A stretch of 64,000 nt of DNA from Rhodococcus sp. Z13 (GTDB lineage Bacteria; Actinomycetota; Actinomycetes; Mycobacteriales; Mycobacteriaceae). Within the stretch, counting starts at the first letter, position 1; each line of letters opens with the position of its first letter. Both the position numbers and the translations under genes were made by a program. The stretch lies in NCBI RefSeq assembly GCF_025837095.1, contig NZ_CP107551.1:806001-870000 (forward strand). Direction: 5' to 3'. Shown here piece by piece: positions 6,233 to 27,500 of the stretch. Under the pieces are notes generated by a model. The model was not told the DNA's origin. It saw nothing but the letters and a program-made list of their open reading frames with translations, and made no database searches.

Positions 6233-6664
6233 ATGATCTCGGATACACGCGCACTTGCCGGCGACCTCGCGCTCGCCGTCGTGCGTCTGACGCGTCATTT
6301 GAGGGGGAGACGCACCGATTCCCGAGTTTCCCTGACTCAGATCTCGGCGATGGCCACCCTGGCCCAGGAGGGGGCGATGACCCCGGGTGCGCTCGCCGCG
6401 CGCGAGCGGGTGCAACCACCGTCGATGACCAGGGTCATCGCGTCTCTCCACGAACTCGGACTCGTCGAGCGCACGCCGCATCCCACCGACGGCAGGCAGA
6501 TCATCGTCTCGCTGTCGCAGGCGGGACACGACCTGCTCGCCGACGAAGCCCAGGCTCGCGAGGTGTGGCTGAGCGAAAGGCTCGAGAAACTCGACGACAC
6601 GTCGCTGGCCACGCTGCGCGAGGCCGTCGGCATCCTCACCGCGCTGGTCGCGGAAGACGACTGA
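6233..6664 (+). CDS. MarR-family transcriptional regulator
   Basis: Winged-helix regulator of 143 aa. The DNA-binding core is recognisable: LTQISAMATLAQEGAMTPGALAARERVQPPSMTRVIASLHELGLVERTPHPTDGRQ split across the helix-turn-helix and wing, with the usual DGR in the wing. It corresponds by position to M. tuberculosis Rv0880. The ATG at 6233 is chosen over an in-frame GTG at 6224 because the GTG lies inside the operator palindrome. Effector and targets are unknown; the neighbouring NCS2 permease and the gene itself are the obvious candidates. Its last codons and stop codon form the first unit of a 26-base tandem repeat. Confidence 0.9.
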   Translation: MISDTRALAGDLALAVVRLTRHLRGRRTDSRVSLTQISAMATLAQEGAMTPGALAARERVQPPSMTRVIASLHELGLVERTPHPTDGRQIIVSLSQAGHDLLADEAQAREVWLSERLEKLDDTSLATLREAVGILTALVAEDD

Positions 6665-6773
6665 CCGCGGGGTGGTCGGACGACGACTGACCGCGGGGCG
6701 GTCGGACGACGACTGACCGCGGGGCGGTCGGACGAGGACTGACCGCGGGGTGGTCGGACGACGACTGACCGCA
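6656..6773 (+). repeat. 26-bp tandem repeat over marR stop codon
   Basis: Four full units and a partial fifth, each starting at GACGACTGA (6656, 6682, 6708, GAGGACTGA at 6734, and 6760), an exact 26-base period. The first unit contains the last two codons and stop of marR. Each unit holds a small hairpin: GACCGC, three bases, then GCGGTC, perfect in units 2 and 3 and with one G-T wobble in units 1 and 4. There are no spacers, so it is not a CRISPR. It could act as a terminator, transcript stabiliser or protein site. Confidence 0.9.
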
Positions 6774-6828
6774 TCACCCCTCACGGACCCGGTGCGGGGG
6801 CACCGGAATGCGCTGGGAGAATGGTCCG

Positions 6829-7635
6829 GTGGTTCACGTCATCGACATCGACGATCCGTCCGACCCCCGGGTCGACGACTTCCGGGATCTCAACTCCTCG
6901 GACCGTCGCCCCGACCTGCCCGGAGGCAAGGGACTGGTGATCGCCGAGGGCGTGTTCGTCGTCCAGCGCATGCTCGACTCCCGGTTCTCGCCGACGGCCC
7001 TGCTCGGTGTCGGCCGTCGTCTGGAGGAACTCGCCGAGGACCTGCGCGACGTGGACGTGCCGTTCTACCGCATCGATGCCGACACCATGGCGAAGGTGGT
7101 GGGTTTCCACCTCAACCGCGGGGTGCTCGCGGCCGCGCACCGGCCGGAGCCCCTCGAACCCGGGGAGATCCTTGACAAGGCGACCACCGTCGCGGTGCTC
7201 GAGGGCGTCAACGACCACGAGAACATCGGGTCGATGTTCCGGAACGCGGCCGGTCTCGGGGTCGACGGCATCCTGTTCGGGAAGGGCTGCGCCGACCCGC
7301 TCTACCGGCGGGCCGTGCGGGTGTCCATGGGGCACGTGCTGCGGGTGCCGTTCGCGCACCTCGACCACTGGCCGCAGGATCTGGACATCCTGCGGAGCCG
7401 GGGTTTCCAGCTGATCTCGCTGACCCCGAATCCGTCCGCGATCCCGCTGGCGGAGGCCATGACGGGGGAGAAGGTCGCGTTGCTGCTCGGCGCCGAGGGA
7501 CCGGGTCTCACCGAGGCCACGATGCAGGCCACCGATGTGCGGGCCCGCATCCCCATGGCGCCGGGCACCGATTCGCTGAACGTCGCCACCGCGGCGGCGA
7601 TGGCGTTCTACGAGCGGGTGCGGCTGCCTCGATGA
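6829..7635 (+). CDS. TrmH/SpoU-family RNA 2'-O-methyltransferase
   Basis: SPOUT-class methyltransferase of 268 aa that should transfer a methyl group from S-adenosylmethionine to a ribose 2'-OH of rRNA or tRNA. All three SpoU motifs are present: NIGSMFRNA at about 132-140, LLLGAEGPG near 225, and IPMAPGTDSLNVATAAAM near the C-terminus, which forms the trefoil knot. The N-terminal 100 residues are a substrate-binding domain. The GTG at 6829 has GGGAGA eight bases upstream; an in-frame ATG at 6808 precedes that ribosome-binding site and is less likely. Its stop overlaps the ATG of the DUF2537 gene (ATGA). Corresponds by position to Rv0881; the exact nucleotide modified is unknown. Confidence 0.88.
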   Translation: MVHVIDIDDPSDPRVDDFRDLNSSDRRPDLPGGKGLVIAEGVFVVQRMLDSRFSPTALLGVGRRLEELAEDLRDVDVPFYRIDADTMAKVVGFHLNRGVLAAAHRPEPLEPGEILDKATTVAVLEGVNDHENIGSMFRNAAGLGVDGILFGKGCADPLYRRAVRVSMGHVLRVPFAHLDHWPQDLDILRSRGFQLISLTPNPSAIPLAEAMTGEKVALLLGAEGPGLTEATMQATDVRARIPMAPGTDSLNVATAAAMAFYERVRLPR

Positions 7636-7904
7636 GACCCGCGTCCGATTCCGCTCCCACACCGTGGGCGACGGGGCTGACGCTGACAGCGTTCTCGCTC
7701 GCCGCCACCGTCGTGGCGGTCGTCGCGTTCGGTCAGGTGCTCGCCCGCATCCACCCGATCCTGGCGATCGCCGTCAACCTCGTGGCCGCCGCCGGCAGCG
7801 TCCCCACCCTGTGGGCGTGGATCCGGGTCCCGGTCCTGCGCTGGTTCGCGGCCGGGGTCGCCGCGGGGATCCCGATCGGCTGGCTCGTTCTGCTCGTGTC
7901 CTGA
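7632..7904 (+). CDS. DUF2537 membrane protein
   Basis: Small membrane protein of 90 aa with three hydrophobic segments (GLTLTAFSLAATVVAVVAFG, ILAIAVNLVAAAGSVPTLWA and WFAAGVAAGIPIGWLVLLV). It matches DUF2537, found immediately after the SpoU methylase in mycobacteria (Rv0882 position). The ATG overlaps the methylase stop by four bases, so translation is coupled. It ends five bases before the stop of the convergent gene on the minus strand, leaving no room for a separate terminator. Function unknown. Confidence 0.8.
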   Translation: MRPASDSAPTPWATGLTLTAFSLAATVVAVVAFGQVLARIHPILAIAVNLVAAAGSVPTLWAWIRVPVLRWFAAGVAAGIPIGWLVLLVS

Positions 7905-7909
7905 CAGCG

Positions 7910-8692
7910 CTATCGGCGCACCAGGCGCCGCCACCAGGACGCGCGCGGCTCCGGCGCGGTGCCGGCTTCGGGCACGGACGTTACTTCGGACACGGTCTCC
8001 GGCTCGGTAACGGATACGGGCCGGGGCTCGACCGGGGGAGCGGGCAGCGGCGCGTCGTGGGCGCGCAATGCGAAGCGCCACACCCGGAACTCCGCCGGGT
8101 CCGGCTCGTCGTCGCGGCGTCCGACGTACCGGAAGCCCAGCCACGCCGCGTGGGCTTCCTCGACGAGCTTGCGGGGATGGAAGGGCAGCGACGCCGGTGG
8201 CGGGGTGACGTTCGGCGGCCACCGAAGCGGATGCTCACCACCCCAGTACGGGCCCTCCCAGACGAACGGCAGCCCCCGGTCCTCGAAGAACTCCACCGTG
8301 TTCGCCCCGAAGGCGCGGCGCAGGCGCCCGCGCTCCCACATCGCGAACGCCCCCCACGCCCCGGGCGGATCCGAGACCAGCAGGAGGGTCCGGTCCGCTG
8401 CGGGGGTGTGCAGCCACATCTCCGGCAGGGCGGACGGCTGCTTCAGCGCGAAACGGGGACTCGACACGACCGTCACCCCGGGATAGCTCCCGACGCAGAT
8501 CCGTTCCTCGTCACCGTCGAGCGTACCGGCGGCCTCGGTGAGCGGTACGCAGTCCAGTGGATCGGCGCGGCGATCCGGGAACAGGCGCGTCAGCAGCGCC
8601 CGGGCGGCGTCACGGTCGGGTTCGAACTCGCGCAGGGTCGCGGCGGGCACGGGAGAGTCGACGTACCACAGCGTCGACACGGCCGCGGCCAT
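7910..8692 (-). CDS. DUF6928-like hypothetical protein
   Basis: Soluble protein of 260 aa. The pattern DRDAARALLTRLFPDRR near the N-terminus, then VCVGSYPG-type and VVSSPRFAL segments and a Trp-rich middle (FAMWERGRLRRAFG, PFVWEGPYWGGEHP), resembles the DUF6928 family of actinobacteria. I make this assignment from memory and hold it loosely. The last 50 residues are Pro/Glu/Val-rich and end in a basic cluster (RASWWRRLVRR). It is the distal gene of a minus-strand run behind sepH, whose stop lies about 12 bases upstream. No enzyme motif was seen. Confidence 0.6.
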   Translation of the reverse strand: MAAAVSTLWYVDSPVPAATLREFEPDRDAARALLTRLFPDRRADPLDCVPLTEAAGTLDGDEERICVGSYPGVTVVSSPRFALKQPSALPEMWLHTPAADRTLLLVSDPPGAWGAFAMWERGRLRRAFGANTVEFFEDRGLPFVWEGPYWGGEHPLRWPPNVTPPPASLPFHPRKLVEEAHAAWLGFRYVGRRDDEPDPAEFRVWRFALRAHDAPLPAPPVEPRPVSVTEPETVSEVTSVPEAGTAPEPRASWWRRLVRR

Positions 8693-8704
8693 CGCCGGTG
8701 GTTC

Positions 8705-9586
8705 TCAGGCGCGTCCGTTGCTGCGAACGCCGAGCAGGACGTCGTCCCAGGACGGCAGGGCCGGCTTGCCGCGCTTGTCCTTCGTCGGCGACTGCGTGGC
8801 GCGCGAGGCGTCGTCGTCGTGGTCGTCGGACAGGGTGGCGCCCACCGGGGTGTCCTCGACGACGGGAGCCGGTTCCGCGGCGGGTTCCTCGACGACCGGC
8901 GGCTCCAGCTGGATCGGCGCACTGCGGTCGGTGCCGTCCAGTTCGGTGGAGTCGTCCACGTCGCGGGCCGAGTAGACCGGCGTCAGATAGCGCAGGGGCC
9001 GACCGCAGTCCGGATCGATCAGGTCGGCCGCGATGTCGTCGAGCGCGGTGATGGTGCCGCCGTGGGCGTCCGGCTGGTACCGCCAGTGTGCCCGGTTGGT
9101 GGAACGGCCCGCGTTCCAGCGCAGCTGCGCGACCCAGTAACCCTCGTCGTCGCGCCAGGCGTCCCAGACGGCGTCGTCGAGGCTGTGCCCGCGGGCGCGG
9201 AAGGCCTGCGAGACGATCTCCATGAGGGTCTCGACGGTGGGGCCGTCGGGGCGGACCGGGTGCCCGTTCTTCGCCATCTCGGCGGCGCGGGAGCGTTCGA
9301 GCAGCACCGGATAGGCGAACCGCTCGACCTTCGCGACGGGGATCCCGGCGTCCTCGGCGACCTGCTCGACGGAGGCGCCGCCGCGGATGCGGGCCTGGAT
9401 CTCGCGGGGGCGGAGCTGGCTGGTGGTCTCGATCTCGATCTGGCCCAGACGTGCGAGGTCGCCGCGGGCGGCGGCGCGCAGGGTGTCGTCCACGGGGATG
9501 CGGAACTTGTCCCCCGTGGTGGGATCGGCGAGCACCACATGCTTAGCATCGGGCTCGAGACCGACCACTCGAAGCTCTCGCACCAT
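8705..9586 (-). CDS. sepH: Septation protein SepH
   Basis: Protein of 293 aa matching SepH (formerly DUF3071), the actinobacterial FtsZ-binding cell-division protein. The N-terminus MVRELRVVGLEPDAKHVVLA is the conserved beginning, followed by a helix-turn-helix (RPREIQARIRGGASVEQVAEDAGIP near residues 80-105) and the conserved YWVAQLRWNAGRS block. The C-terminal third is an acidic Pro/Glu linker ending in a conserved SWDDVLLGVR motif. The ATG at 9586 is preceded by GAGGAGG at good spacing; upstream in-frame starts lack this. In Streptomyces and Mycobacterium SepH stimulates FtsZ assembly through the N-terminal HTH region. Position next to serC matches Rv0883c-Rv0884c. Confidence 0.92.
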   Translation of the reverse strand: MVRELRVVGLEPDAKHVVLADPTTGDKFRIPVDDTLRAAARGDLARLGQIEIETTSQLRPREIQARIRGGASVEQVAEDAGIPVAKVERFAYPVLLERSRAAEMAKNGHPVRPDGPTVETLMEIVSQAFRARGHSLDDAVWDAWRDDEGYWVAQLRWNAGRSTNRAHWRYQPDAHGGTITALDDIAADLIDPDCGRPLRYLTPVYSARDVDDSTELDGTDRSAPIQLEPPVVEEPAAEPAPVVEDTPVGATLSDDHDDDASRATQSPTKDKRGKPALPSWDDVLLGVRSNGRA

Positions 9587-9754
9587 GACCTCCTCGCGCC
9601 GATCGCGATTGACCCGCCCGACTGTAACCGACTTGATCACCTTTTCGGGCCAGGACACGCCGCGCCGTCCAGCACGGAGCCGCCGGAATCCGTTTCGGCG
9701 CGCTATCGTCCAGGGTTCTCCCGAAAAGTCTCGATGTCGGGTCGAGAGTTGGGA

Positions 9755-9787
9755 ACGGGGCCGGGTCCGTGCAGGACCCGGCCCCGT
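9755..9787 (-). terminator. Terminator hairpin after serC
   Basis: Perfect 14-base-pair GC-rich stem (arms 9755-9768 and 9774-9787) with a five-base loop, 22 bases beyond the serC stop. The following minus-strand sequence is only moderately T-rich. It separates serC from sepH, which therefore probably has its own promoter in the remaining 170 bases. Confidence 0.75.
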
Positions 9788-9809
9788 CGGGCCTCGGTGA
9801 GGCGAGCGA

Positions 9810-10943
<1,134 letters not shown>

Positions 10944-10972
10944 CTAAGAGTCGAGGGACATGGTGCACAGGT

Positions 10973-10978
10973 AGTCTA
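10973..10978 (-). promoter_or_regulatory. serC: Probable -10 element for serC
   Basis: TAGACT on the minus strand, a close match to the actinobacterial TANNNT consensus, lies 42 bases before the serC ATG in the 78-base gap behind citA. No convincing -35 hexamer is present 17 bases upstream, as is common in these genomes. Confidence 0.4.
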
Positions 10979-11009
10979 GACGGCCCGCTCATCCCTGCCG
11001 CCGGGTGCG

Positions 11010-12137
11010 TCAGCGGTGGGTGATCGAATCCCAGCCGGTGACCGAGGACGCGGGCCGCGGATCGGGGCCGGTGTAGATGGCGGCGGGACGCACCAGCCGG
11101 CCCAGTCGCTTCTGTTCGAGGATGTGCGCGCACCAGCCGGCGGTGCGTCCGCAGGTGAACATCGCGGGCATCATCGCGGCGGGGACCTCGGCGAAGTCGA
11201 GGACGACCGCGGCCCAGAACTCGACGTTGGTTTCGATGGCGCGGTCGGGGCGGCGTTCGCGCAGCTCCGTCAGGGCGGCCTGTTCGAGAGCGGCGGCGGC
11301 TTCGAAGCGCGGGGCGCCGAGGCGTTTGGCGGTGGCGCGCAGCACCCGGGCGCGGGGGTCCTCGGCGCGGTAGACGCGGTGCCCGAAGCCCATGAGCTTG
11401 TCCTTGCGGTCGAGGATGCCCTTGACCAGCGCGGCCGGATCGCCGGTGCGTTCGGTTTCCTCGATCATCGGCAGGACGCGGGCGGGGGCGCCGCCGTGCA
11501 GGGGGCCGGACATCGCGCCGACCGCGCCGGAGAGGGCGGCGGCGGCGTCGGCGCCGGTGGAGGCGATGACGCGGGCGGTGAAGGTCGAGGCGTTCATGCC
11601 GTGTTCGGCCGCGGAGACCCAGTAGGCGTCGATGGCTTCGACGTGGCGGGGGTCGGGTTCGCCCTTCCAGCGGACCATGAAGCGTTCGGTGACCGTGCGC
11701 GCTTCGTCGATGCGTTTCTGGGGGACGGCGGGCTGGTAGATGCCGCGGGCGGATTGGGCGACGTAGGACAGGGCCATGACGGCGGCGCGGGCGAGGTTGT
11801 CGCGGGCGGTGGTGTCGTCGATGTCGAGCAGGGGTTGGAAGCCCCAGATGGGGGCGAGCATGGCGAGGCCGGCTTGGACGTCGACGCGGACGTCGCCGGT
11901 GTGGATGGGCAGGGGGAACGGTTCGGCGGGGTGCAGGCCGCGGCCGAATTCGCCGTCGACGAGCAGGGCCCAGACGTCGCCGAAGGTCACGCCCTTGTCG
12001 ACGAGTTCTTCGATGTCGACGCCGCGGTAGCGCAGGGCGCCGCCGTCCTTGTCGGGTTCGGCGATGTCGCTGGTGAATGCGACGACCCCTTCGAGACCAG
12101 GGGTGAAATCTTCCGGAACTGACGCGCTCGCTGCCAT
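11010..12137 (-). CDS. citA: Citrate synthase 2
   Basis: Protein of 375 aa of the short, type-I-like actinobacterial citrate synthase 2 family (Rv0889c position). It condenses acetyl-CoA (or propionyl-CoA in methylcitrate-active members) with oxaloacetate. Catalytic landmarks are present: PLHGGAPARVLPM (His), GFGHRVYRAEDPRA (His) and NVEFWAAVVLD (Asp near the end). It differs from the hexameric GltA-type enzyme encoded at 15535 by lacking its extended N-terminus. The ATG at 12137 has GAGGAGAG about 11 bases upstream. It diverges from pdxH across 185-230 bases that contain a small palindrome. Confidence 0.92.
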   Translation of the reverse strand: MAASASVPEDFTPGLEGVVAFTSDIAEPDKDGGALRYRGVDIEELVDKGVTFGDVWALLVDGEFGRGLHPAEPFPLPIHTGDVRVDVQAGLAMLAPIWGFQPLLDIDDTTARDNLARAAVMALSYVAQSARGIYQPAVPQKRIDEARTVTERFMVRWKGEPDPRHVEAIDAYWVSAAEHGMNASTFTARVIASTGADAAAALSGAVGAMSGPLHGGAPARVLPMIEETERTGDPAALVKGILDRKDKLMGFGHRVYRAEDPRARVLRATAKRLGAPRFEAAAALEQAALTELRERRPDRAIETNVEFWAAVVLDFAEVPAAMMPAMFTCGRTAGWCAHILEQKRLGRLVRPAAIYTGPDPRPASSVTGWDSITHR

Positions 12138-12249
12138 GACGGTGGGGCTCTCCTCGCTAGGGTGCCGCCCGGTCCGGGCCGCACTGCCGGTGGATACGGG
12201 GACGCCGTCGGGTGTGACCGGCGTCCCAATCGGGTCGTCGGAGAAAACT

Positions 12250-12265
12250 GTAGTCCCCCGACTAC
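12250..12265. promoter_or_regulatory. Small palindrome in citA-pdxH divergent gap
   Basis: GTAGTC and GACTAC form a perfect inverted repeat around CCCC. On the minus strand the right-hand edge reads TACAGT, a possible -10 for citA, so a protein bound here could control citA. It is short and may be chance in GC-rich DNA. Confidence 0.35.
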
Positions 12266-12322
12266 CGCGTGGACCGGCCGGTCGCCCGAGTACCGTCGTC
12301 GTCCGTGCCGTCCGATATCCTG

Positions 12323-12384
12323 ATGCCGAACCACGAGGGCATCCCGATGCCGAATCACGAGGGCATCCCGATGCCGAATCCCGA
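12323..12384 (+). repeat. 24-bp repeat carrying ribosome site and ATG
   Basis: Units begin at ATGs 12323, 12347 and 12371 (third unit partial). Each complete unit encodes MPNHEGIP and contains GAGGG seven bases before the next ATG, so every unit is itself a Shine-Dalgarno plus start codon for the following one. It lies at the 5' end of pdxH and all three ATGs are in frame with it. Confidence 0.9.
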
Positions 12385-13057
12385 AGGCGACGACCTCGCG
12401 CGCATGCGCGTCGACTACGGGCTCACCGGGTCGTCGGACGAGTCCCGGGACGATCTCGACCTCGATCCCGCTGCACTCGCCGACGGCTGGCTGTCGTTGC
12501 TGCGCCGGTGGTTCGCCGCCGCCGTGGCGACCGGCGTCACCGAGCCCAACGCGATGGTGCTCGCCACCGTCGACGAGCAGGGCCGGCCCGCCAGCCGCAC
12601 GGTGCTGTGCAAGGGGATCGACGACGACGGTCTGACCTTCTTCACCAACTACGAGTCGGACAAGGGCCGCCACCTCGCGGCGAACCCCTACGCGTCGGCG
12701 ACCTTCCTCTGGCTGCAGGCCCACCGTCAGGTGACCGTGCGCGGACCGGTCGTCCGCGTCCCCGCCGAGGAAACCGAGGCCTACTGGCGCACGCGTCCGC
12801 GCGGCTCGCGTCTCGGTGCCTGGGCGTCGCGGCAGTCGCGACCGGTGGCGGAGCGCGCCGATCTCGAACGCGCCCTCGTCGAGGCCGCCGAACGCTACGA
12901 GGTCGACGACGACATCCCCGTGCCCCCGTTCTGGGGCGGTTTCCGGATCCGGCCCGAATCGGTCGAGTTCTGGCAAGGCCGACCCAACCGGCTGCACGAC
13001 CGGCTCCGCACCCGGCTGGTGGACGGCCGCTGGATCACCGAGCGTCTGCAGCCGTGA
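12371..13057 (+). CDS. pdxH: Pyridoxamine 5'-phosphate oxidase
   Basis: FMN enzyme of 228 aa from this start, oxidising pyridoxamine or pyridoxine 5'-phosphate to PLP. Conserved parts are [23 protein letters not shown] (FMN site), [42 protein letters not shown] and the C-terminal RPNRLHDRL signature. The third of three in-frame ATGs (12323, 12347, 12371) was chosen because it has GAGGG at seven bases and gives normal family length; the second has the same signal, and the first has none. The stop overlaps the GTG of the MFS gene. Proximity to serC, which shares PLP chemistry, may be coincidental. Confidence 0.92.
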
Positions 13058-15534: not shown

Positions 15535-16833
15535 GTGCCCGCTGAGAATGACACCCAACCCACCCTCAGCTACCCCGGTGGCGAGCACACGATGTCTATC
15601 GCCAAGGCGACGGAAGGCAATGACGGTATCGAGCTGGGCAAGCTCCTTGCGGCGACCGGGTACACCACCCTGGACCCGGGTTTCGTCAACACCGCCTCCA
15701 CGAAGTCGGCGATCACGTACATCGACGGCGAGAAGGGCATCCTGCGGTATCGCGGGTACCCGATCGAGCAGCTCGCCGAGAAGTCGACGTTCATCGAGGT
15801 CAGCTACCTGCTGATCTACGGTGAGCTGCCGACTGCGGAGCAGCTCGAGACGTTCACCGACAAGATCCGCCGCCACACCCTGCTGCACGAGGATCTCAAG
15901 CGGTTCTTCGACGGCTTCCCCCGCAACGCGCACCCGATGCCGGTCGTCTCCTCGGCCGTCAACGCGCTGTCGGCGTACTACCAGGACGCTCTCGACCCCG
16001 ACGATCCGGAGCAGGTCGAGCTGTCCACCATCCGCCTCATGGCGAAGCTGCCCACCATCGCGGCCTACGCCTACAAGAAGTCCGTCGGCCAGCCGTTCCT
16101 GTACCCGGACAACTCGCTGTCGCTCGTCGAGAACTTCCTGCGGATGACCTTCGGGTTCCCCGCCGAGCCGTACGAGATCGATCCCGAGATCGCTCAGGCG
16201 CTCGACATGCTGCTGATCCTGCACGCGGACCACGAGCAGAACTGCTCGACGTCGACGGTGCGCCTCGTCGGTTCCTCCGACGCCAACCTCTTCACCTCGA
16301 TCTCCGGCGGCATCAACGCCCTGTGGGGCCCGCTGCACGGTGGCGCCAACCAGGCCGTGCTCGAGATGCTCGACGGCATCCAGAAGTCCGGCGGCGACGT
16401 CAAGGAGTTCGTCCGCAAGGTCAAGAACAAGGAAGACGGCGTGAAGCTCATGGGCTTCGGGCACCGCGTCTACCGCAACTACGACCCGCGCGCCGCGATC
16501 GTCAAGAAGACCGCCGACCGCATCCTGAAGAAGCTCGGTGCGGGCGACGAGCTGCTCGAGATCGCCATGAAGCTCGAGGAAGCCGCCCTCACGGACGAGT
16601 ACTTCATCGAGCGCAAGCTGTACCCGAACGTCGATTTCTACACGGGCCTGATCTACCGTGCGATGGGCTTCCCGGACCGCATGTTCACCGTGCTGTTCGC
16701 GCTCGGCCGCCTGCCCGGCTGGATCGCGCACTGGCGTGAGATGCACTCCGACCCGACGCTGAAGATCGGCCGCCCGCGCCAGATCTACACCGGCTACACC
16801 GAGCGCGCGTACCAGCCCGTCGAGGAGCGCTGA
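15535..16833 (+). CDS. gltA: Citrate synthase (main, hexameric type)
   Basis: Protein of 432 aa catalysing entry of acetyl-CoA into the citric acid cycle. Catalytic segments are intact: LHGGANQAVLEM (His), GFGHRVYRNYDPRA (His) and NVDFYTGLI (Asp). The beta-rich N-terminal extension of type II, NADH-sensitive hexameric synthases is present (TLDPGFVNTASTKSAITYIDGEKGILRYRGYPIEQLAE). The GTG start has GAGAGGG eight bases upstream. Matches M. tuberculosis GltA2 (Rv0896). Followed after 53 bases by the FKBP gene, likely co-transcribed. Confidence 0.96.
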   Translation: MPAENDTQPTLSYPGGEHTMSIAKATEGNDGIELGKLLAATGYTTLDPGFVNTASTKSAITYIDGEKGILRYRGYPIEQLAEKSTFIEVSYLLIYGELPTAEQLETFTDKIRRHTLLHEDLKRFFDGFPRNAHPMPVVSSAVNALSAYYQDALDPDDPEQVELSTIRLMAKLPTIAAYAYKKSVGQPFLYPDNSLSLVENFLRMTFGFPAEPYEIDPEIAQALDMLLILHADHEQNCSTSTVRLVGSSDANLFTSISGGINALWGPLHGGANQAVLEMLDGIQKSGGDVKEFVRKVKNKEDGVKLMGFGHRVYRNYDPRAAIVKKTADRILKKLGAGDELLEIAMKLEEAALTDEYFIERKLYPNVDFYTGLIYRAMGFPDRMFTVLFALGRLPGWIAHWREMHSDPTLKIGRPRQIYTGYTERAYQPVEER

Positions 16834-17628: not shown

Positions 17629-17673
17629 CGAGGCTCGCACCACCGGTGTCACCCACCGGTGTTGCGAGCCTCG
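17629..17673 (+). terminator. Terminator hairpin after FKBP gene
   Basis: Long stem with perfect outer arms (17629-17639 and 17663-17673, CGAGGCTCGCA type) and an inner CACCGGTG pair, followed by TGCTCTTTCT. It is 20 bases past the FKBP stop. Confidence 0.85.
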
Positions 17674-17730
17674 TGCTCTTTCTGTGAGCGTGGGGTGCAG
17701 TGCCCGCGTGCCTCCCGAAAGGATCTGTCG

Positions 17731-19530
17731 ATGCCCGCTCCCGTGCTGTCCCGCCGCGACCTGGACTTCCTGCTCTACGACTGGCTCGACATCGAGTCCC
17801 TCACCGATCGTGCCCGTTTCGCCGAGCACTCCCGCGAGACCTTCGACGCGGTCCTCGACCTGAGCGCCGACCTCGCCACCCGGTACTTCGCGACCCACAA
17901 CAAGAAGGCCGACGCGCAGGAACCCCGCATCGGTGAGGACGGCCGCGTGGAGATCATCCCCGAGGTCAAGGAGGCGCTGGACCTGTTCTCCAAGGCCGGA
18001 CTCATCGCGGGCGGTTTCGACGAGCGGCACGGCGGCATGCAGCTGCCGGTGACCGTGCTGCGCGCCTCCATGGCGTGGTTCCAGGCAGCCAATGCGGGCA
18101 CCTCGGCCTATCCCTTTCTCACCGCCGCCAACGCCAACCTGCTCGTCACCCACGGCAGCGACGAGCAGATCGCGACCTTCGTCCCGCCCATGCTCGAGGG
18201 CCGCTTCTTCGGCACCATGTGCCTGTCCGAACCACAGGCCGGATCCTCGCTCGCCGACATCACCACGAAGGCCGTGCCCGCCGGCGACGGCACCTACCGG
18301 CTGACCGGCACGAAGATGTGGATCTCCGGCGGCGACCACGAACTCACCGAGAACATCGTCCACCTCGTCCTCGCGAAGATCCCGGGCAGCCCGGCGGGGG
18401 TGAAGGGCATCTCGCTGTTCGTCGTCCCCAAGTACCTCGTCGAGCCCGACGGCACGCTCGGCGACCGCAACGACGTCGCCCTCGTGGGCCTGAACCACAA
18501 GATGGGCAACCGCGGCACCACCAACACCCTGCTCAACTTCGGGGAGGGCGCGCACACCCCGGGCGGGCGGGCCGGCGCGGTCGGTTACCTGCTCGGGGAG
18601 CCGGACAAGGGCCTGTCGTACATGTTCCACATGATGAACGAGGCACGCATCGGTGTCGGGTTCCTCGCGACCTCCCTCGGCTACGCCGGCTACCTGCAGT
18701 CGCTCGACTACGCCCGCACCCGCACGCAGGGCCGCCCGCTCGGCGCCAAGGACCCGGCCTCACCGCAGGTGCCGCTCGTCGAGCACGCCGACGTGCGGCG
18801 GATGCTGCTGGCCCAGAAGTCCTACGTCGAGGGCGCACTGGCACTGGGCCTGTACTGCTCGAAGCTCGTCGACGAACAGCAGACCACCGACAGCGACGAG
18901 GCGCGGACCCGCGCCGGGCTGTTGCTGGACCTGCTCACCCCGATCGCCAAGTCGTGGCCGTCGCAGTGGTGCCTCGAGGCGAACAGCCTCGCGATCCAGG
19001 TGCTCGGCGGTTACGGCTACACCCGCGAGTTCGACGTCGAGCAGTTCTACCGCGACAACCGGCTCAACGCCATCCACGAGGGCACCCACGGCATCCAGGG
19101 ACTCGACCTGCTCGGCCGCAAGGTGATCATGCAGGGCGGCGCTGCCTTGAAGCTGCTGGGCGAGACGATCGGGGAGACCATCGCCCGCGCGACCGTAGCC
19201 GGGGGCGACGCCGCGGTGTACGCGCAGCAGCTCGGGGCCGCGGTCGGCCGCGTCGCCGAGACCACCGCGACGTTGTGGTCCACCGGCGATCCCGCTGTGG
19301 CGCTGGCAAATTCGTCGATCTACCTCGAGGCCGTCGGGCACGTCGTGGTGGCGTGGATCTGGCTCGAACAGCTGCTCGCCGTCGGCGACCGCGAGGGCGA
19401 CTTCTTCGACGGCAAGCGCGCCGCGGCCCGCTACTTCTACCGCTTCGAGCTGCCGCGGACGGGACCGCAGTTCGACCTGCTGTCGAGCCTCGACCGCACC
19501 ACCCTGGACGTGTCACCGTCGGCTCTGTGA
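17731..19530 (+). CDS. Acyl-CoA dehydrogenase, large (FadE/DmdC-like)
   Basis: FAD enzyme of 599 aa, longer than the usual 380-400 aa acyl-CoA dehydrogenases because of a C-terminal extension (about residues 470-599) typical of the FadE5/DmdC-like group. FAD and substrate motifs: CLSEPQAGSSLADI, KMWISGGDH, QVLGGYGYTREF, and the catalytic Glu in NAIHEGTHGIQGLDLLGRK. It oxidises acyl-CoA to 2-enoyl-CoA in fatty-acid breakdown; chain length is unknown. ATG with GAAAGGA eight bases upstream. The stop codon sits in the first copy of a 27-base hairpin repeat shared with the convergent gene. Confidence 0.9.
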   Translation: MPAPVLSRRDLDFLLYDWLDIESLTDRARFAEHSRETFDAVLDLSADLATRYFATHNKKADAQEPRIGEDGRVEIIPEVKEALDLFSKAGLIAGGFDERHGGMQLPVTVLRASMAWFQAANAGTSAYPFLTAANANLLVTHGSDEQIATFVPPMLEGRFFGTMCLSEPQAGSSLADITTKAVPAGDGTYRLTGTKMWISGGDHELTENIVHLVLAKIPGSPAGVKGISLFVVPKYLVEPDGTLGDRNDVALVGLNHKMGNRGTTNTLLNFGEGAHTPGGRAGAVGYLLGEPDKGLSYMFHMMNEARIGVGFLATSLGYAGYLQSLDYARTRTQGRPLGAKDPASPQVPLVEHADVRRMLLAQKSYVEGALALGLYCSKLVDEQQTTDSDEARTRAGLLLDLLTPIAKSWPSQWCLEANSLAIQVLGGYGYTREFDVEQFYRDNRLNAIHEGTHGIQGLDLLGRKVIMQGGAALKLLGETIGETIARATVAGGDAAVYAQQLGAAVGRVAETTATLWSTGDPAVALANSSIYLEAVGHVVVAWIWLEQLLAVGDREGDFFDGKRAAARYFYRFELPRTGPQFDLLSSLDRTTLDVSPSAL

Positions 19531-19585
19531 CTTCGGGTCACCTCGTCGGCACTGTGACCTCGGGTCACCTCCGGTTCCGTGAGGG
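19512..19585. repeat. 27-bp hairpin repeat over fadE stop
   Basis: Two clear units and a degraded third. GTCGGCTCTGTGAC at 19518 recurs as GTCGGCACTGTGAC at 19545, an offset of 27. Each is followed by a five-base loop and GTCAC, forming GTGAC-loop-GTCAC hairpins at 19527-19541 and 19554-19568. The TGA of fadE lies in the left arm of the first hairpin, and the TGA of the convergent minus-strand gene (19565-19567) lies in the right arm of the second. Confidence 0.85.
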
Positions 19586-20077
19586 CACCTTCCAGTCCAC
19601 CGTCAGCGAGCCGTCGACCGGGAGCGCGTGCCACCGGTCGGCGTGCTCGTCGAGGCGATCCACGATCCGCTCGACCAGCGGGGTGACGTCCCGGGGCGAC
19701 ACGTAGCCGGGCAGGCCGGGCGCCTTTCCCCGGCGGACCTCCCAGACCGGCACGGCGATCCGCGCGAGTTCCTCCGAGCGGACCATGTCGGCTTCCGCTC
19801 GCGGTGGCAGGTGGCGTTTCCCGGCCCGGCGCTGCCGGCCGGCCCGGGCGCGTTCGGCCGGGTCGGCCGGCCAGAACAGGCCGTTGTCGCCGGCGGCCAG
19901 CTGCCCGAACACGCCGAGTTCGATGCCGGCCTCCAGCTCGACCAGCAGATGGACCAGGTCGTGGGGGAGATAGGGGTGGCCGCCGGGGCCGTTGCGGGGT
20001 GCGAGCGCCGGACCGGTCTCGCGCTGCACCGCGACCTCGTACCCGATGCCGGGACCCTTCGTGAACGTCACTCGCAT
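19565..20077 (-). CDS. Hypothetical protein
   Basis: Soluble protein of 170 aa that I do not recognise. It starts MRVTFTKGPGIGYEVAVQRE, has a PYLPHDLVHLLVELEAGIELGVFGQLAAG segment and an Arg/Ala-rich basic middle, and ends in DGSLTVDWKVPSRNRR. There is no signal peptide, membrane helix or catalytic motif. ATG at 20077 preceded by CTGGCGGC, a weak ribosome site. It is the last gene of a minus-strand series from 22531. Its stop lies in a hairpin repeat shared with fadE. Confidence 0.6.
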   Translation of the reverse strand: MRVTFTKGPGIGYEVAVQRETGPALAPRNGPGGHPYLPHDLVHLLVELEAGIELGVFGQLAAGDNGLFWPADPAERARAGRQRRAGKRHLPPRAEADMVRSEELARIAVPVWEVRRGKAPGLPGYVSPRDVTPLVERIVDRLDEHADRWHALPVDGSLTVDWKVPSRNRR

Positions 20078-20120
20078 GCCGCCAGGGTAGGCCCCGCGAC
20101 CGGCGACGCGCACCCGGTTT

Positions 20121-20699
20121 TCAGGCGGCCGCACCCCGCGGCACCAGCCGGTTCACCGTGACACCCCCGAAGACCCGGCTCTCGGTGAGGTCGAACCGGA
20201 TCGGATCGAATCCGCTGCGGAACAACGGGATGCCGTCGCCGATCACCACGGGGGAGATCTTCAGGACGAGTTCGTCGATCTCCGGCAGTAGCGTGCCGGC
20301 GAGAGATCCACCGCCACACAACCAGATTCCCGCACCGTCCTGCTTCTTCAGGTCGCGCACGTAGGCGAGCGGGTCGCTGTCGACGAGGGTGACGGTGTCG
20401 TCGGGCGTCTCGGTCATGGTGGTGGAGAAGACGTACTGATCCAGGTGCTTGTACGCGCTCGTCACCCCGGCGTCGAGCGACGGTTCCCAGGTGCGACGCC
20501 CCATCACCACGGAATCGAATTTCTTGTTCGGAGAATCGATTCCGAGATGATCACGCACATGTGTGGGGACGGTCTCCGGGTACTCCTGCACCAGTGCGGC
20601 CGTGAGCTCGTCGGGGATCGGGAAGAAGTCGTACTCCCCGTTCGGTCCCGCGATGAAGCCGTCCATCGTGACGGCGACGTAGTAGGTCAGAGTGCGCAC
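20121..20699 (-). CDS. Dihydrofolate reductase-family protein
   Basis: Protein of 192 aa with the RibD C-terminal/DHFR-like fold. It has the N-terminal YYVAVTMDGFIAGPNGEYDFF, the VVMGRRTWE motif (NADPH-binding region) and IWLCGGGSLAGTLL (glycine turn). Family members are NADPH-dependent reductases whose substrate is usually undefined; true folate reductase activity is not implied. GTG start with AGGGGGG about five bases upstream. It shares its strand with a second, more RibD-like reductase at 21205. Confidence 0.8.
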   Translation of the reverse strand: MRTLTYYVAVTMDGFIAGPNGEYDFFPIPDELTAALVQEYPETVPTHVRDHLGIDSPNKKFDSVVMGRRTWEPSLDAGVTSAYKHLDQYVFSTTMTETPDDTVTLVDSDPLAYVRDLKKQDGAGIWLCGGGSLAGTLLPEIDELVLKISPVVIGDGIPLFRSGFDPIRFDLTESRVFGGVTVNRLVPRGAAA

Positions 20700-22020: not shown

Positions 22021-22021
22021 G

Positions 22022-22531: not shown

Positions 22532-22630
22532 GAGCGGATCGTACGGCCGTGGCGCGCTCGCGGAGGCGGGTTCGGGGCCGTCCTCCGCGGTGGGTTTGGT
22601 GGAGGCGCGAGGGCGGGTATCCGCCGCGGT

Positions 22631-23701
22631 ATGGATGCCGAGCACAGAGGTGACGCCTCGTCCGGGGCCACCGTGGCCCCGGACGATCCCCGTAAGCCCG
22701 ATTCGCCCACGGACCTGACGAAATTGTCGTGGAAGTACGTGCTGCGACGCACGATTCGCGAGTTCGGGCACGACCAGTGCACGGATCTCGCCGCCGCGCT
22801 CACCTACTACGCGGTGCTGTCGCTGTTCCCGGCGCTGCTCGTCGTGGTCTCCCTGCTCGGGGTGTTCGGGCAGGGGCAGGCCACCGTCGACACCGTGCTC
22901 GGCATGGTCGAGGATCTCGGTCCGTCGTCGGCGGTGGACACCCTGCGCGGTCCGATCGAACAGCTGGTGGCGGCACCCACCGCCGGACTCGCCCTGCTCA
23001 TCGGTGTCGTCGGTGCCCTGTGGTCGGCGTCCGGCTACGTCGGGGCGTTCGGACGGGCCATGAACCGGATCTACGAGATCGAGGAGGGCCGGCCCGTCTG
23101 GAAGCTGCGGCCGCTGATGCTGCTCGTGACGGCACTGGCGCTCGTCGCCGCGGGTGCCACCGCGCTGATGCTGGTGGTGAGCGGCCCGCTCGCCCGCACC
23201 ATCGGCGACGTCATCGGACTCGGCGACACCGCCGTGACCACGTGGAACATCGTCAAATGGCCGGTCATGCTGCTGCTCGTCATCGTGATCGTCGCGGTGC
23301 TGTACTACGCGACGCCCAATGTCGCGCAGCCGAAGTTCCGGTGGGTGAGCCTCGGTTCGCTCATCGCGATCGTCGTGTGGATCCTCGCGTCGGTCGGATT
23401 CGCCTTCTACGTCTCGAACTTCGGCAGCTACAACAAGACCTACGGTTCCCTCGCCGGTGCCGTGATCTTCCTGTTGTGGCTGTGGATCACGAACCTGGCG
23501 CTGCTGTTCGGCGCCGAATTCGACGCCGAGATGGAACGCGGCCGCCAGCTGCAGGCCGGGATGTCGGCGGAGGAGACCCTGCAACTGCCCGAACGGGATT
23601 CACGGGTGATCGAGAAGAACGCCGCCAAGTACGAGGAACTCGTCGAACACGGCCGTCGCCTGCGCGAGGCGCACAGTACCGGCACCGAAGACGGCCGCTG
23701 A
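22631..23701 (+). CDS. YihY/BrkB-family membrane protein
   Basis: Integral membrane protein of 356 aa, the UPF0761/BrkB family. It begins with a hydrophilic segment, then DLAAALTYYAVLSLFPALLVVVSLLG, which is the family hallmark, and has about six transmembrane helices, including LWSASGYVGAFGRAMNRIYE and IFLLWLWITNLALLFGAEFDAE. A charged tail of about 60 residues follows. Despite the historical name tRNase BN, this family has no proven RNase activity; its function is uncertain. The ATG at 22631 is near the divergent flavin reductase start at 22531. Confidence 0.85.
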   Translation: MDAEHRGDASSGATVAPDDPRKPDSPTDLTKLSWKYVLRRTIREFGHDQCTDLAAALTYYAVLSLFPALLVVVSLLGVFGQGQATVDTVLGMVEDLGPSSAVDTLRGPIEQLVAAPTAGLALLIGVVGALWSASGYVGAFGRAMNRIYEIEEGRPVWKLRPLMLLVTALALVAAGATALMLVVSGPLARTIGDVIGLGDTAVTTWNIVKWPVMLLLVIVIVAVLYYATPNVAQPKFRWVSLGSLIAIVVWILASVGFAFYVSNFGSYNKTYGSLAGAVIFLLWLWITNLALLFGAEFDAEMERGRQLQAGMSAEETLQLPERDSRVIEKNAAKYEELVEHGRRLREAHSTGTEDGR

Positions 23702-23708
23702 CAACAGA

Positions 23709-23751
23709 AGTGGACGGTCGCACAGGCCGGATACCTGTGCGGCCGTCCACT
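23709..23751. terminator. Bidirectional terminator between brkB and prpE
   Basis: Stem of 18 base pairs with one wobble (arms 23709-23726 and 23734-23751). It lies between the convergent stops at 23701 and 23771, so it can serve both. Confidence 0.85.
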
Positions 23752-23770
23752 CCGTGTGCGAAGGGGCGGA

Positions 23771-25663
23771 TCAGCCCTGCAGCTGCTCGCGCAGCGCCTC
23801 GAGGACGGCCGGGTCCTCGATGGTCGACGGCACGGTGAACTGCTCGTGGTCGGCGATCTGCCGCATCGTCTTGCGGAGGATCTTGCCCGACCGGGTCTTC
23901 GGGAGCGCCTGCACGACCGTCACATCGCGGAAGGTCGCGACCGCGCCGATCTGCTCGCGGACCATCGCGACGAGCTCCCGACGCAGTGTCTCGTGGTCGA
24001 TCTCCACACCCGACTTGAGCACCACGTATCCCGACGGGCGCTGACCCTTCAGCTCGTCGCGGATACCCACCACGGCGCACTCGGCGACGGCCGGATGCGA
24101 GGCGACCACGGCCTCCATGCTGCCGGTGGAGAGCCGGTGCCCGGCCACGTTGATGACGTCGTCGGAGCGGCCCAGGACGAAGACGTAACCGTCCTCGTCG
24201 ACGAAGCCGGAGTCACCGGTGAGGTAGTACCCGGGGAAGGTGTCGAGATAGGAGCGGCGGAAGCGCTCTTCGTCCCGCCACAGACCGGCGAGCGTGCCGG
24301 GCGGAAGCGGGAGACCGATGACGATGTTGCCTTCGGTGTTCGGCTCGACCGGCTTGCCCTCGCCGTCGACGATCTCCACCCGGTAGCCCGGCACGGGGAC
24401 GGTGGGGGAGCCGGCCTTGAGCGGCATCGGGTCCAGGCCGCGCAGGTTCGCAGCGATCGCCCAGCCGGTCTCGGTCTGCCACCAGTGGTCGACGACCGGG
24501 CGCTCGAGCACCTTCGTCGCCCACTCGTAGGTGTCGGGGTCGAGGCGCTCACCCGCAGCGAAGAGGGTCTCCAGCGTGTCGATCGAGTACTTCTTCAGCT
24601 CGTCGGCGTTCGGATCGGCCTTGCGCACGGCGCGGATCGCGGTGGGCGCGGTGAACAGCGCCTTGACGCCGTTCTCCGAGATGATCCGCCAGAACGCACC
24701 GGCGTCCGGGGTGCCGACGGGCTTGCCCTCGTACATCACGGTGGTCGCACCCACGAGCAGCGGGGCGTAGACGATGTAGGAGTGGCCGACGACCCAGCCG
24801 ACGTCCGAGGCCGTCCACCACACGTCGCCGGGCCCGATGTCGTAGATGGCGCTCATCGACCAGGTCAGCGCCACGGCGTGACCGCCGTTGTCGCGCACGA
24901 CGCCCTTCGGCTTCCCGGTGGTGCCGGAGGTGTAGAGGATGTAGAGCGGGTCGGTGGCCGCGACCGTCACCGGCTCGGCCGGAGTGGTGTCGGCAGCCAG
25001 CTCGTCCCAGTCGAACCACGCCGCGGAGGACGTCTTGTAGTCCGCTGCCGAACCGGGGATCTGCTCGCGGTTCTTGACGATCACGGTGTGCGGCGGAGTC
25101 TGCGACAACCCGATCGCCTGCTCGACCATCGGCAGGTACTCGATGATGCGGCCGGGCTCCATGCCGCCGGAGGCGGTGACGAGGACCACGGGGGTCGCGT
25201 CGTCGATGCGGGTGGCGAGCTCCTTGGCGGCGAACCCACCGAACACCACCGAGTGCACGGCGCCGATACGGGCGCACGCGAGCATCGCGATGGCGGCCTC
25301 GGGGATCATCGGCATGTAGACGACCACGCGGTCGCCGGCGGTGACGCCCTGGTCGCGCAGGACACCGGCGAAGGTCGCGACCTCGTCGAGCAGCTCCGCG
25401 TAGGTGTAGGTGCGCTTGGCCGGGACCATCGCCGAATCCCAGATCAGGGCCGGGCGGTCGCCGTGGCCGGCGCGCACGTGCCGGTCGAGGGCGTTGACGC
25501 TCGTGTTGAGGGTGCCGTCGGGGAACCAGCGGTAAGCCGGTGCCGCCGAGTCGTCGAGAGCCCGGGTCGGGGCGTTCTCCCACTCGACCGCCTGGGCGGC
25601 CTCGAGCCAGAACCCTTCCGGGTCCTCCACGCTCCGGCGGAACGCCTCCTCGTACGAGCTCAT
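23771..25663 (-). CDS. prpE: Propionyl-CoA synthetase
   Basis: AMP-forming acyl-CoA synthetase of 630 aa. YILYTSGTTGKPKG is the adenylation P-loop, WWQTETGW the A5 motif, YYLTGDSG the A7 motif, and KTRSGKILRKTMR near the C-terminus carries the catalytic lysine. The N-terminal YRWFPDGTLNTSVNALDRHV is characteristic of PrpE rather than Acs. It makes propionyl-CoA (or acetyl-CoA) from the free acid, ATP and CoA, feeding the methylcitrate and methylmalonyl pathways. A tight ribosome site (GGACAGGAAAG) precedes the ATG. It lies downstream of an acyl-CoA carboxyltransferase gene, consistent with propionyl-CoA metabolism. Confidence 0.88.
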   Translation of the reverse strand: MSSYEEAFRRSVEDPEGFWLEAAQAVEWENAPTRALDDSAAPAYRWFPDGTLNTSVNALDRHVRAGHGDRPALIWDSAMVPAKRTYTYAELLDEVATFAGVLRDQGVTAGDRVVVYMPMIPEAAIAMLACARIGAVHSVVFGGFAAKELATRIDDATPVVLVTASGGMEPGRIIEYLPMVEQAIGLSQTPPHTVIVKNREQIPGSAADYKTSSAAWFDWDELAADTTPAEPVTVAATDPLYILYTSGTTGKPKGVVRDNGGHAVALTWSMSAIYDIGPGDVWWTASDVGWVVGHSYIVYAPLLVGATTVMYEGKPVGTPDAGAFWRIISENGVKALFTAPTAIRAVRKADPNADELKKYSIDTLETLFAAGERLDPDTYEWATKVLERPVVDHWWQTETGWAIAANLRGLDPMPLKAGSPTVPVPGYRVEIVDGEGKPVEPNTEGNIVIGLPLPPGTLAGLWRDEERFRRSYLDTFPGYYLTGDSGFVDEDGYVFVLGRSDDVINVAGHRLSTGSMEAVVASHPAVAECAVVGIRDELKGQRPSGYVVLKSGVEIDHETLRRELVAMVREQIGAVATFRDVTVVQALPKTRSGKILRKTMRQIADHEQFTVPSTIEDPAVLEALREQLQG

Positions 25664-25805
25664 CGCTTTCCTGTCCTTCCTCGCCTACAACTGTGGCCGC
25701 GAACACCCTATGTGACCGATCACCAGGACGAGTGCGATCTGCGCCGGACGGACGGAAATACGCGACGAATGGTGGATCGTCGGGTGCCGCGGCCGTTCCT
25801 GCCGC

Positions 25806-27317
25806 TCATTCCCGTAGGTCCGGAACCCCGAGCCGGCGGTACCGCTCGAGGCGCCTGCGGTACCGCAGGTCGTCGGGTTCGTCGGCCAGTGCGACGAGTT
25901 CCCGCGCCACCGCCGCGCCGACCCGCTTGACGAACCCCACCGGCTCCGCTGCGGCGTCGGGCAGCTCCGGGACCACCGCGTCGACGATGCCGTCGCGCAG
26001 CAGGTCGCGGGAGCGGATGCCCTGGTCCTCGGCCATGCGCGGGGCGTGGGTGGTGTCGCGGTGCACGATTGCGCTGGCGCCCTCGGGCGGCAGGGGCGCA
26101 AGCCAGCCGTGCTGTGCGCACAGCACCCGGTCGGCGGGCAGCAGCGCCAGCGCCCCACCGCCGGTACCCTGCCCGAGCAGCACCGACACCGTCGGGGTCG
26201 GCAGGGTCACGAGGTCGGCGAGGCACCGGGCGATCTCCGGGGCGAGACCGCGTTCCTCGGCCTCCTTCGACAGGGCCGCGCCGAGGGTGTCGATGACGAG
26301 CACGAGCGGCAGCCGCAGTTCGTCGGCCAGGCGCATGGCGCGACGGGCCTCGCGCAGCGCGCCGGGCCCCATCGTCTGCTCGGGCGACTGGCCGGACCGG
26401 TCCTGCCCGAACATCACACACGACACCCCGCGGAAGCGGGCGAGGGACAGCATCACGGTGCGGTCCGACTCTCCCTGCCCCGTTCCCGACAGCGGCACCT
26501 GCGCCGACGCCGCGTGCCGCAGCAGCTGCCGGATACCCGGCCGTTCACGGCGGCGGCTGAGCATCACCGACTGCCAGGCGGGGATGTCGGGCACGTCCGC
26601 GGGATCGGTGACCGCGGGGCTCGTGCTGATGTCGGGGCGGTTCGGTTCGACGAGCACCCGCAGCAGCCGGTGCACCACCTGCCGCACGCCCTCGAGGGGG
26701 ATGATCCCGTCGATCACACCGTTGCGGTAGAGGTTCTCGGCGGTCTGGACGCCCTCGGGGAACGGCTCGTTGTACAGGGCCCGGTAGACGCGCGGGCCGA
26801 GGAACCCGACGAGCGCGCCGGGTTCGGCGGCGGTGACGTGCCCGAGCGAACCCCACGACGCGAACACCCCGCCCGTCGTCGGGTTGCGCAGGTACACGAG
26901 ATAACCGAGGTGTGCGGCCTTGTGGGCGGCGACCGCCGCGGCGATCTTGACCATCTGCACGAAGGCGAGCGTGCCCTCCTGCATGCGGGTGCCCCCGGAG
27001 GTGGGGGAGGCGAGCAGCGGCAGTCCCTCGGCGGTCGCGCGTTCGACGGCGGTGACGATCCGTTCGGCGGCGGCCACCCCGATCGACCCTGCGAGGAAGG
27101 AGAATTCGCACACGATCAGGGCGATGCGCCGGCCGTGCACGGTGCCGACGCCGGTGAGGACGGACTCGTCGACCCCGGACTTCTCGGCGGCCCGCTGCAG
27201 GTCGGCGCGATAGCTCTCCCCGGCGCCGACGTCGATGGGCGGGACGTCCCAGGAGACGAAGCTGCCCGGGTCGAGCACGTTGTCGATGAACTCCTGCGCC
27301 GAAATCTTCCCGGCCAC
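25806..27317 (-). CDS. accD3: Fused acyl-CoA carboxyltransferase (AccD3 type)
   Basis: Protein of 503 aa with both carboxyltransferase halves, beta-like N-terminal and alpha-like C-terminal, fused in one chain. ASPTSGGTRMQEGTLAFVQM and GGVFASWGSLGHVTAAEPGA define the first half; VIDTLGAALSKEAEERGLAPEIARCL and LGQGTGGGALALLPADRVL the second. It transfers carboxyl from biotin to acyl-CoA; its biotinylated partner is not encoded here. It matches M. tuberculosis AccD3 (Rv0904c) by sequence type and by its neighbour echA6. ATG start with GGAGGCAAC-type ribosome site. Confidence 0.88.
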   Translation of the reverse strand: MAGKISAQEFIDNVLDPGSFVSWDVPPIDVGAGESYRADLQRAAEKSGVDESVLTGVGTVHGRRIALIVCEFSFLAGSIGVAAAERIVTAVERATAEGLPLLASPTSGGTRMQEGTLAFVQMVKIAAAVAAHKAAHLGYLVYLRNPTTGGVFASWGSLGHVTAAEPGALVGFLGPRVYRALYNEPFPEGVQTAENLYRNGVIDGIIPLEGVRQVVHRLLRVLVEPNRPDISTSPAVTDPADVPDIPAWQSVMLSRRRERPGIRQLLRHAASAQVPLSGTGQGESDRTVMLSLARFRGVSCVMFGQDRSGQSPEQTMGPGALREARRAMRLADELRLPLVLVIDTLGAALSKEAEERGLAPEIARCLADLVTLPTPTVSVLLGQGTGGGALALLPADRVLCAQHGWLAPLPPEGASAIVHRDTTHAPRMAEDQGIRSRDLLRDGIVDAVVPELPDAAAEPVGFVKRVGAAVARELVALADEPDDLRYRRRLERYRRLGVPDLRE

Positions 27318-27370
27318 GTTGCCTCCACCTGTTCTCGTCGTTCGAGGTCAACCTATACCGGCACGAAGAA

Positions 27371-27421
27371 GGGGGAGGATGTGTGTGCTCCGCGGCGGCA
27401 GGAGCGCACACATCCTCCCCC
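27371..27421 (-). terminator. Strong terminator after ABC permease gene
   Basis: Stem of 21 base pairs with one wobble (arms 27371-27391 and 27401-27421) around a nine-base loop. On the minus strand the 3' side continues TTCTTCG. It lies beyond the ABC permease stop and before the accD3 start, so it separates these units. Confidence 0.85.
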
Positions 27422-27430
27422 TCGATCGGG

Positions 27431-27500
27431 CCGCTCAGCGGCCGAGTTGCCGGGGGCCGCTCAGCGGCCGAGCTGCCGGGGGCCGCTCAGCGGCCGAGCG
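27431..27500 (-). repeat. 26-bp tandem repeat over ABC permease stop
   Basis: Copies of CCGCTCAGCGGCCGAG start at 27431, 27457 and 27483, an exact 26-base period. The palindrome CCGCTCAGCGG has TGA at its centre on the minus strand. The copy at 27483 supplies the last codons (Leu-Gly-Arg) and stop of the ABC permease gene; two further copies repeat them downstream. Confidence 0.9.

Follow-up and report, generated by a model that had tools for sequence, protein, structure and literature searches.

The stretch analysed here, called the window throughout, comprises 64,000 nucleotides of Rhodococcus sp. Z13 (contig NZ_CP107551.1, positions 806,001 to 870,000 of the forward strand). It contains three genes whose stop codons are overlapped by tandem arrays found with Tandem Repeats Finder (TRF): a marR-family gene, a fadE-like acyl-CoA dehydrogenase gene and an ABC-2 permease gene. 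A first-pass annotation of the window had described tandem copies of stop codon plus palindrome at these three ends, with periods of 26, 27 and 26, and TRF recovers them as 4.7, 2.0 and 2.8 copies. The features concerned are the following, in window positions.

6224..6664, plus strand: marR-family gene from the open reading frame (ORF) list, stop TGA at 6662-6664 (Pfam MarR, 7.8e-15)
6651..6772, plus strand: marR array, TRF period 26, 4.7 copies, 94% matches, score 216
17659..19530, plus strand: fadE-like acyl-CoA dehydrogenase gene, stop at 19528-19530 (Pfam Acyl-CoA_dh_C, 1.1e-25)
19517..19571, plus strand: fadE array at a tight convergent junction, TRF period 27, 2.0 copies, score 96
19565..20134, minus strand: convergent ORF from the ORF list, stop at 19565-19567 within copy 2 of the fadE array
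27369..27423, minus strand: separate strong hairpin 3' of the ABC array, score 20.0, with a similar hairpin at the same place in the sister genomes defined below
27428..27499, minus strand: ABC array, TRF period 26, 2.8 copies, score 137
27487..28863, minus strand: ABC-2 permease gene, stop at 27487-27489 (Pfam ABC2_membrane_3, 2.1e-42)

The marR array includes 11 nt of ORF sequence, the stop codon and copies of the stop; all 18 genomes examined in the genus have an orthologue of the gene. The fadE array spans the stops of both converging genes, with 11 nt and 4 nt of the two ORFs inside it, and a Pfam search with the convergent ORF returned no match. The ABC array is built on a GGCCGC/GCGGCC palindrome that carries the stop codon in its loop, and the long, near-perfect hairpin behind it is likely to be the terminator or real 3' end signal of the permease gene. 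A lag-match scan of the window (lags 18–60) gave four places above the cut-off, three of which are the marR, fadE and ABC arrays.

The genome consists of one contig of 4,532,339 bases, and our own sample was the window plus 20 stretches of 20 kb, 464 kb altogether. The clade (G000, G003, G005, G006, G008, G013 and G015), which was set by MarR identity alone, comprises this genome and six sisters with MarR at 92–94% identity; the remaining genomes among the 18 of the genus reach at most 86%. By FadE identity, the nearest named relatives are Rhodococcus gordoniae at 91% and R. coprophilus at 90%. Four sisters were sampled systematically (400 kb each from G006 and G005, 200 kb each from G008 and G013), giving a clade sample of five genomes, including our own, and 1.664 Mb. 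Gene ends come from a home-made fifth-order Markov caller and not from annotation, and the census retained arrays with a TRF score of at least 60, periods of 10–200 being allowed.

In this clade, tandem arrays are concentrated at stop codons, where the final codons, the stop and a short piece of downstream DNA often recur in two to six tandem copies. The clade sample contains 145 arrays, with 24 over a stop, 23 in gaps, one over a start and 97 inside ORFs; ten of the 24 stop arrays lie in the 464 kb of our own genome, which extrapolates very roughly to 80–100 genome-wide. For the collapsed count, each array was reduced to one unit and all admissible places for a 26-bp founder were counted. With tandem and convergent gene pairs summed, 23 arrays were found in 28,676 places over stops, six in 33,801 places in gaps within 60 nt of a stop, and none in 6,915 places covering a stop and the next start jointly. 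For the strict stop class, an array had to include the stop together with 6 nt or more of its ORF. The densities per 10,000 placements were then 10.7 at stops, 2.5 in near gaps (up to 60 nt from a stop), 1.2 in more distant gaps and 0.3 at starts, and the comparison of stops with near gaps rests on 19 versus 10 arrays (p=1.3e-4). Three of the 48 arrays outside ORFs fell outside the gene pairs counted in the collapsed and strict counts. Starts are avoided (1 of 45 arrays), as are places joining stop and start (0 of 45). The stop excess persists when the window is left out (16 versus 8, p=2.6e-5; strict class, 22-bp founders). Under the least favourable null, in which whole arrays were randomised over non-ORF positions, 17 of 27 arrays were observed at stops against about 10.0 expected, a 1.7-fold excess summed over the five genomes, and a null based on founder units, with arrays not collapsed, gave 17 observed against 4.35 expected. 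The concentration at stop codons in this clade is real and statistically firm, and so is a roughly fourfold preference for the stop over the adjacent 3' DNA; the annotation's expectation that such arrays would be commoner at stops than elsewhere was borne out, with the window or without it. One further pair in the window was scored as gap, not stop, in the density counts, and each of its units opens with another TGA:

44879..44908, plus strand: 15-bp unit, 2.0 copies (TRF), directly 3' of the stop TGA (44876-44878) of ORF 43967-44878

The density at stops exceeds that of all other classes, including gene interiors, where the frame-corrected value is about 2 per 10,000 nt. This is in keeping with stop codons being a mutational hot spot, at which the end of translation would expose nascent RNA and single-stranded DNA and so favour hairpin extrusion and slippage, with arrays as a by-product. 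Short direct repeats also peak at stops: outside the listed arrays, exact direct repeats of at least 10 bp with a lag of 13–32 occur at 0.61/kb at −20 to −1 and 0.73/kb at 0 to +19 of stops, as compared with 0.16–0.36/kb further downstream and 0.15/kb in gene interiors. They are rare around the start codon itself (0.04/kb just upstream, but 0.42/kb at −60 to −41). Such repeats may, however, be seeds or remains of arrays, and those of 8 bp are in excess only at 0 to +19. The exposure should moreover affect the DNA following the stop more than the stop itself, and a bias in retention yields the same pattern; we regard a hot spot of this kind as quite unlikely to account for the arrays.

The units are short. 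Although periods of 10–200 were allowed, the 24 stop arrays have periods of 13–32 bp, 26 being the commonest, and eight of these periods are divisible by three and 16 are not, the pattern expected without selection for frame. Inside ORFs, 91 of the 97 periods are divisible by three; in a set of 43 in-ORF arrays the periods peak at 24 (12 arrays) and 27 (8 arrays), either side of 26. Back-up stops against read-through would favour periods divisible by three and were rejected as an explanation on these numbers, 8 of 24 being as by chance. The position of the unit at first suggested that a ribosome-footprint-sized segment might be copied, from about −10 to +15 of the stop, since offsets of 9–11 nt are found in 9 of the 19 strict stop arrays; this was tested post hoc, the full range of offsets is 6–22, and the preference was not repeated outside the clade sample (13–29 nt in six of nine). 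Among arrays inside genes, a fourth strong array of the window (12317-12388, 24-bp unit, 3.0 copies) lies in ORF 12304-13057, as bounded by the gene caller, and G006 carries two arrays 1.8 kb apart with an identical consensus of 25-bp period (L058:13772-13820 and 15563-15611), probably in paralogous genes.

The units of stop arrays are frequently palindromic. A stem of at least six pairs is present in 7 of 17 stop arrays, as against 4.5% of 1222 ordinary stop segments (p=1.2e-4), and in 37% of 38 arrays inside ORFs, which do not differ from stop arrays (p=0.54). With an 85% match filter, the palindromic fraction is 0.44 of 16 stop arrays and 0.38 of 24 in-ORF arrays, and 0.06–0.08 in shuffled sequences. 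Hairpins in general are no commoner at stops than expected in either of the genomes examined for this (42 of 365 ends in our own and 29 of 310 in G006, with 12–13% expected from coding DNA), which rules out a general hairpin habit at stops for both, and in both they peak 30–45 nt behind the stop and not on it. Because palindromes are equally frequent in in-ORF and stop arrays and hairpins are not enriched at stops, the palindrome goes with being an array and not with the position at the stop, which fits slippage at hairpins, the probable mechanism.

These observations bear on the possibility that the arrays are selected 3'-end elements, in which serial hairpins devoid of a U-tract would end transcription or protect the mRNA, and through which tight convergent gene pairs would gain room and insulation. 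The 12 arrays found at the 224 convergent junctions of the clade sample speak for such a role, and changes between copies are somewhat scarcer at stem positions (8 of 328) than at the other positions of the arrays (20 of 393; p=0.08). However, arrays inside ORFs are just as palindromic, the stem does not exceed four perfect pairs in eight of 17 stop arrays, and hairpins peak behind the stop rather than on it. RNA folding compared with shuffles gave z=−3.7 for the marR array and z=−8.0 for the ABC array when the separate downstream hairpin was included; for the fadE array the value is that of shuffled sequence (z=0.0), and the fadE hairpin is therefore not exceptional. The T-tract pattern of a classical intrinsic terminator occurs at 0 sites in the marR, fadE and ABC arrays. 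Tandem "U-shaped" terminators are a recognised class in actinobacteria. A stable hairpin at most about 50 bp behind the stop is contained in some units (ABC and the uvrA-like gene described below) and is weak or absent in others, and the ABC gene has retained its strong separate hairpin behind the array. The first-pass annotation had offered stacked terminators, 3' mRNA protection and insulation as roles; as a general cause of the arrays these are not supported, given the equally palindromic in-ORF arrays, the lack of hairpin enrichment at stops in the two genomes examined, the missing T-tracts at the three window arrays and the separate ABC hairpin.

The origin of the arrays was traced at orthologous gene ends, which were compared for seven of the ten stop arrays of our genome, with six sisters each. 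Arrays are present at 8 of the 42 sister ends, where the period or the unit is a different one, and the rest are single-copy; array turnover between species is rapid. The fadE, ABC, uvrA-like, L021 and L017 ends have an array in our own genome and in none of the six sisters. In each of the six sisters, the ABC gene ends in a single copy of a palindrome whose loop contains the stop, which is TAG in four of them and TAA in two, and at L021, the end of a second MarR-family gene in a convergent pair, our unit is the sisters' single junction sequence. From these two matches it follows that the units were copied from the ancestral end of the gene, and the comparison upholds the annotation's proposal of serial duplication of the gene's own 3' end. 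The same annotation had set down array-free sister strains with unchanged ends as evidence against its reading: such sisters, with conserved ends, were found at five of the seven ends. At those of marR and of a DUF881 gene, four of six sisters each have arrays. At the marR end, the sister arrays have TRF periods of 23–25, G008 has a single hairpin and G013 has nothing. The DUF881 gene end (L002:13806-13916) lies upstream of a GATase (class-I glutamine amidotransferase) gene and has period-26 arrays in five of the seven clade genomes; the four sister arrays (L302, L303, L305 and L306) begin 6–31 nt behind the stop, with a unit unrelated to that of our own genome.

We consider the arrays to be small bacterial minisatellites that arise by palindrome-linked slippage and are tolerated because copy 1 normally keeps the gene end, an explanation to which we give a probability of roughly 0.6. 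During replication, a palindromic stretch of 15–30 bp would be duplicated in tandem when the strands slip or misalign, and copies would be gained or lost in later slippage events. Duplication could take place anywhere, but within genes only units divisible by three would survive, and at starts hardly any. Where a duplication spans the stop, the first copy would normally preserve the gene's own end, so that the change would be almost free and the array would persist; near-neutrality of this kind would apply at most loci.

Several observations weigh against this explanation. Pure neutrality predicts equal densities at the stop and just behind it, and the observed values are 10.7 and 2.5 per 10,000 (p=1.3e-4); tolerance therefore does not explain why arrays are about four times as dense on the stop as in the DNA that follows it, which should be just as free to change. 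The somewhat lower variation of stem positions noted above points the same way. At L017, our protein end differs from that of the sisters, so that copy 1 did not leave that end unchanged and duplication is not always without effect. At the end of a gene that we take to be uvrA-like (Pfam gives ABC_tran), an array replaces a strong hairpin that is present in all six sisters (score 14–17.5, at +2 to +11); our own genome has no hairpin outside the array there and one of score 10.0 inside it:

L013:4112-4263, own genome: uvrA-like gene array, 26-bp unit, 5.8 copies

The recurrence of arrays at the marR and DUF881 ends, in four of six sisters each, suggests hot spots or retained use. Both this recurrence, with DUF881 units that are unrelated yet have a period of 26 in our genome and in the sisters, and the replacement at the uvrA-like end would also be expected of selected 3'-end elements, whose case is further helped by the mycobacterial U-tract-less terminators that are said to lie at most 50 bp behind the stop (PMC12288462). 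Five of the seven arrays of our genome that were compared have no counterpart in any sister, however, and we hold selection of the arrays as 3'-end elements to be an unlikely explanation overall. Some loci may use the array as a 3'-end signal, but the evidence does not support this as what generally accounts for the arrays; of the roles put forward in the first-pass annotation, what stands is some support at the uvrA-like end, where our array takes the place of the six sisters' hairpin, and at the marR and DUF881 ends, with their arrays in sisters. A combined account, in which tandem duplications of about 26 bp would truly arise more often at the stop codons of the clade, through a process linked to the finishing of translation or transcription that copies the gene's own end, and in which hairpin arrays would occasionally be adopted as 3'-end signals, as at the uvrA-like gene, seems to us doubtful but worth keeping in view beside the minisatellite explanation.

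The strong form of the phenomenon is limited to this Rhodococcus clade, with scattered cases elsewhere. Five genomes outside it (0.8 Mb; two of the genus and three of other genera) had no stop excess (2 stop versus 5 gap arrays, p=0.58), and 80 named actinobacterial loci around fadE (1.58 Mb) had a weak one (9 versus 12, p=0.049). A strong excess in one clade only would be expected of a mutational hot spot if a repair or replication factor differs there. G013 had no stop arrays in its 200-kb sample, though it is a clade member. The longest stop unit among the 80 named loci is one of 87 bp in Gordonia amicalis (L166:9748-9971), with 2.6 copies over the stop.

Bacterial minisatellites, or variable-number tandem repeats (VNTRs), resemble the arrays in having head-to-tail, near-identical units of about 10–100 bp with a locus-specific sequence, in changing between relatives and in having in-ORF units divisible by three; change was found here between species at seven gene ends (8 of 42 sister ends). 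The Rhodococcus arrays differ from them in being strongly concentrated on stops, with the gene's own end in the unit. The tandem repeats of Borgs (PMC9879509) share an independent origin, fast evolution and in-ORF units all divisible by three, with intergenic units mostly not; Borg units are perfect and A-rich, whereas those of Rhodococcus are GC-rich, palindromic and stop-centred, and lie on a bacterial chromosome.

A mobile repeat family inserted at stops, similar to the mycobacterial interspersed repetitive units (MIRUs) or to repetitive extragenic palindromic (REP) elements, is brought to mind by tandem copies between genes. MIRU and MIRU-VNTR likewise form tandem repeats at actinobacterial gene borders; they are a mobile family of about 40–100 bp said to insert at starts (PMC12548453, PMC2734929), in contrast to the locus-own units of 13–32 bp at stops described here. 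The consensus units differ between loci, so that no sequence family is common to them, their periods are 13–32 and not 40–100 bp, and each unit derives from the gene end at which it lies. Searches of the 4.53-Mb genome with the marR and ABC arrays, the two searched, gave no match beyond the array's own position, and positions 1-30000 of the window contain no Rfam family. The annotation's view that this is not one mobile repeat agrees with these results, and a mobile family is very improbable. U-tract-less (I-shaped) actinobacterial terminators (PMC12288462) are similar in being GC-rich hairpins close behind stops; the palindrome of the Rhodococcus arrays, in contrast, overlaps the stop, is weak in many cases and occurs just as often in arrays within genes. 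In the open-licence literature, no paper was found on tandem arrays over stop codons in Rhodococcus, which is weak evidence of novelty.

Bacterial tandem repeats are usually treated as scattered over coding and intergenic DNA. The several-fold concentration at stops, together with the depletion at starts, means that gene anatomy, on a scale of about 20 nt, influences either how often small duplications are born or how well they survive. If tolerance alone is responsible, the arrays caution against reading stacked terminators into such sequences; if stops are hot spots whose hairpin arrays are at times adopted as 3'-end signals, gene ends would evolve by self-copying. The arrays offer fast strain-typing loci for Rhodococcus, and they may help to explain the emergence of new 3' ends in GC-rich genomes with few U-tract terminators.

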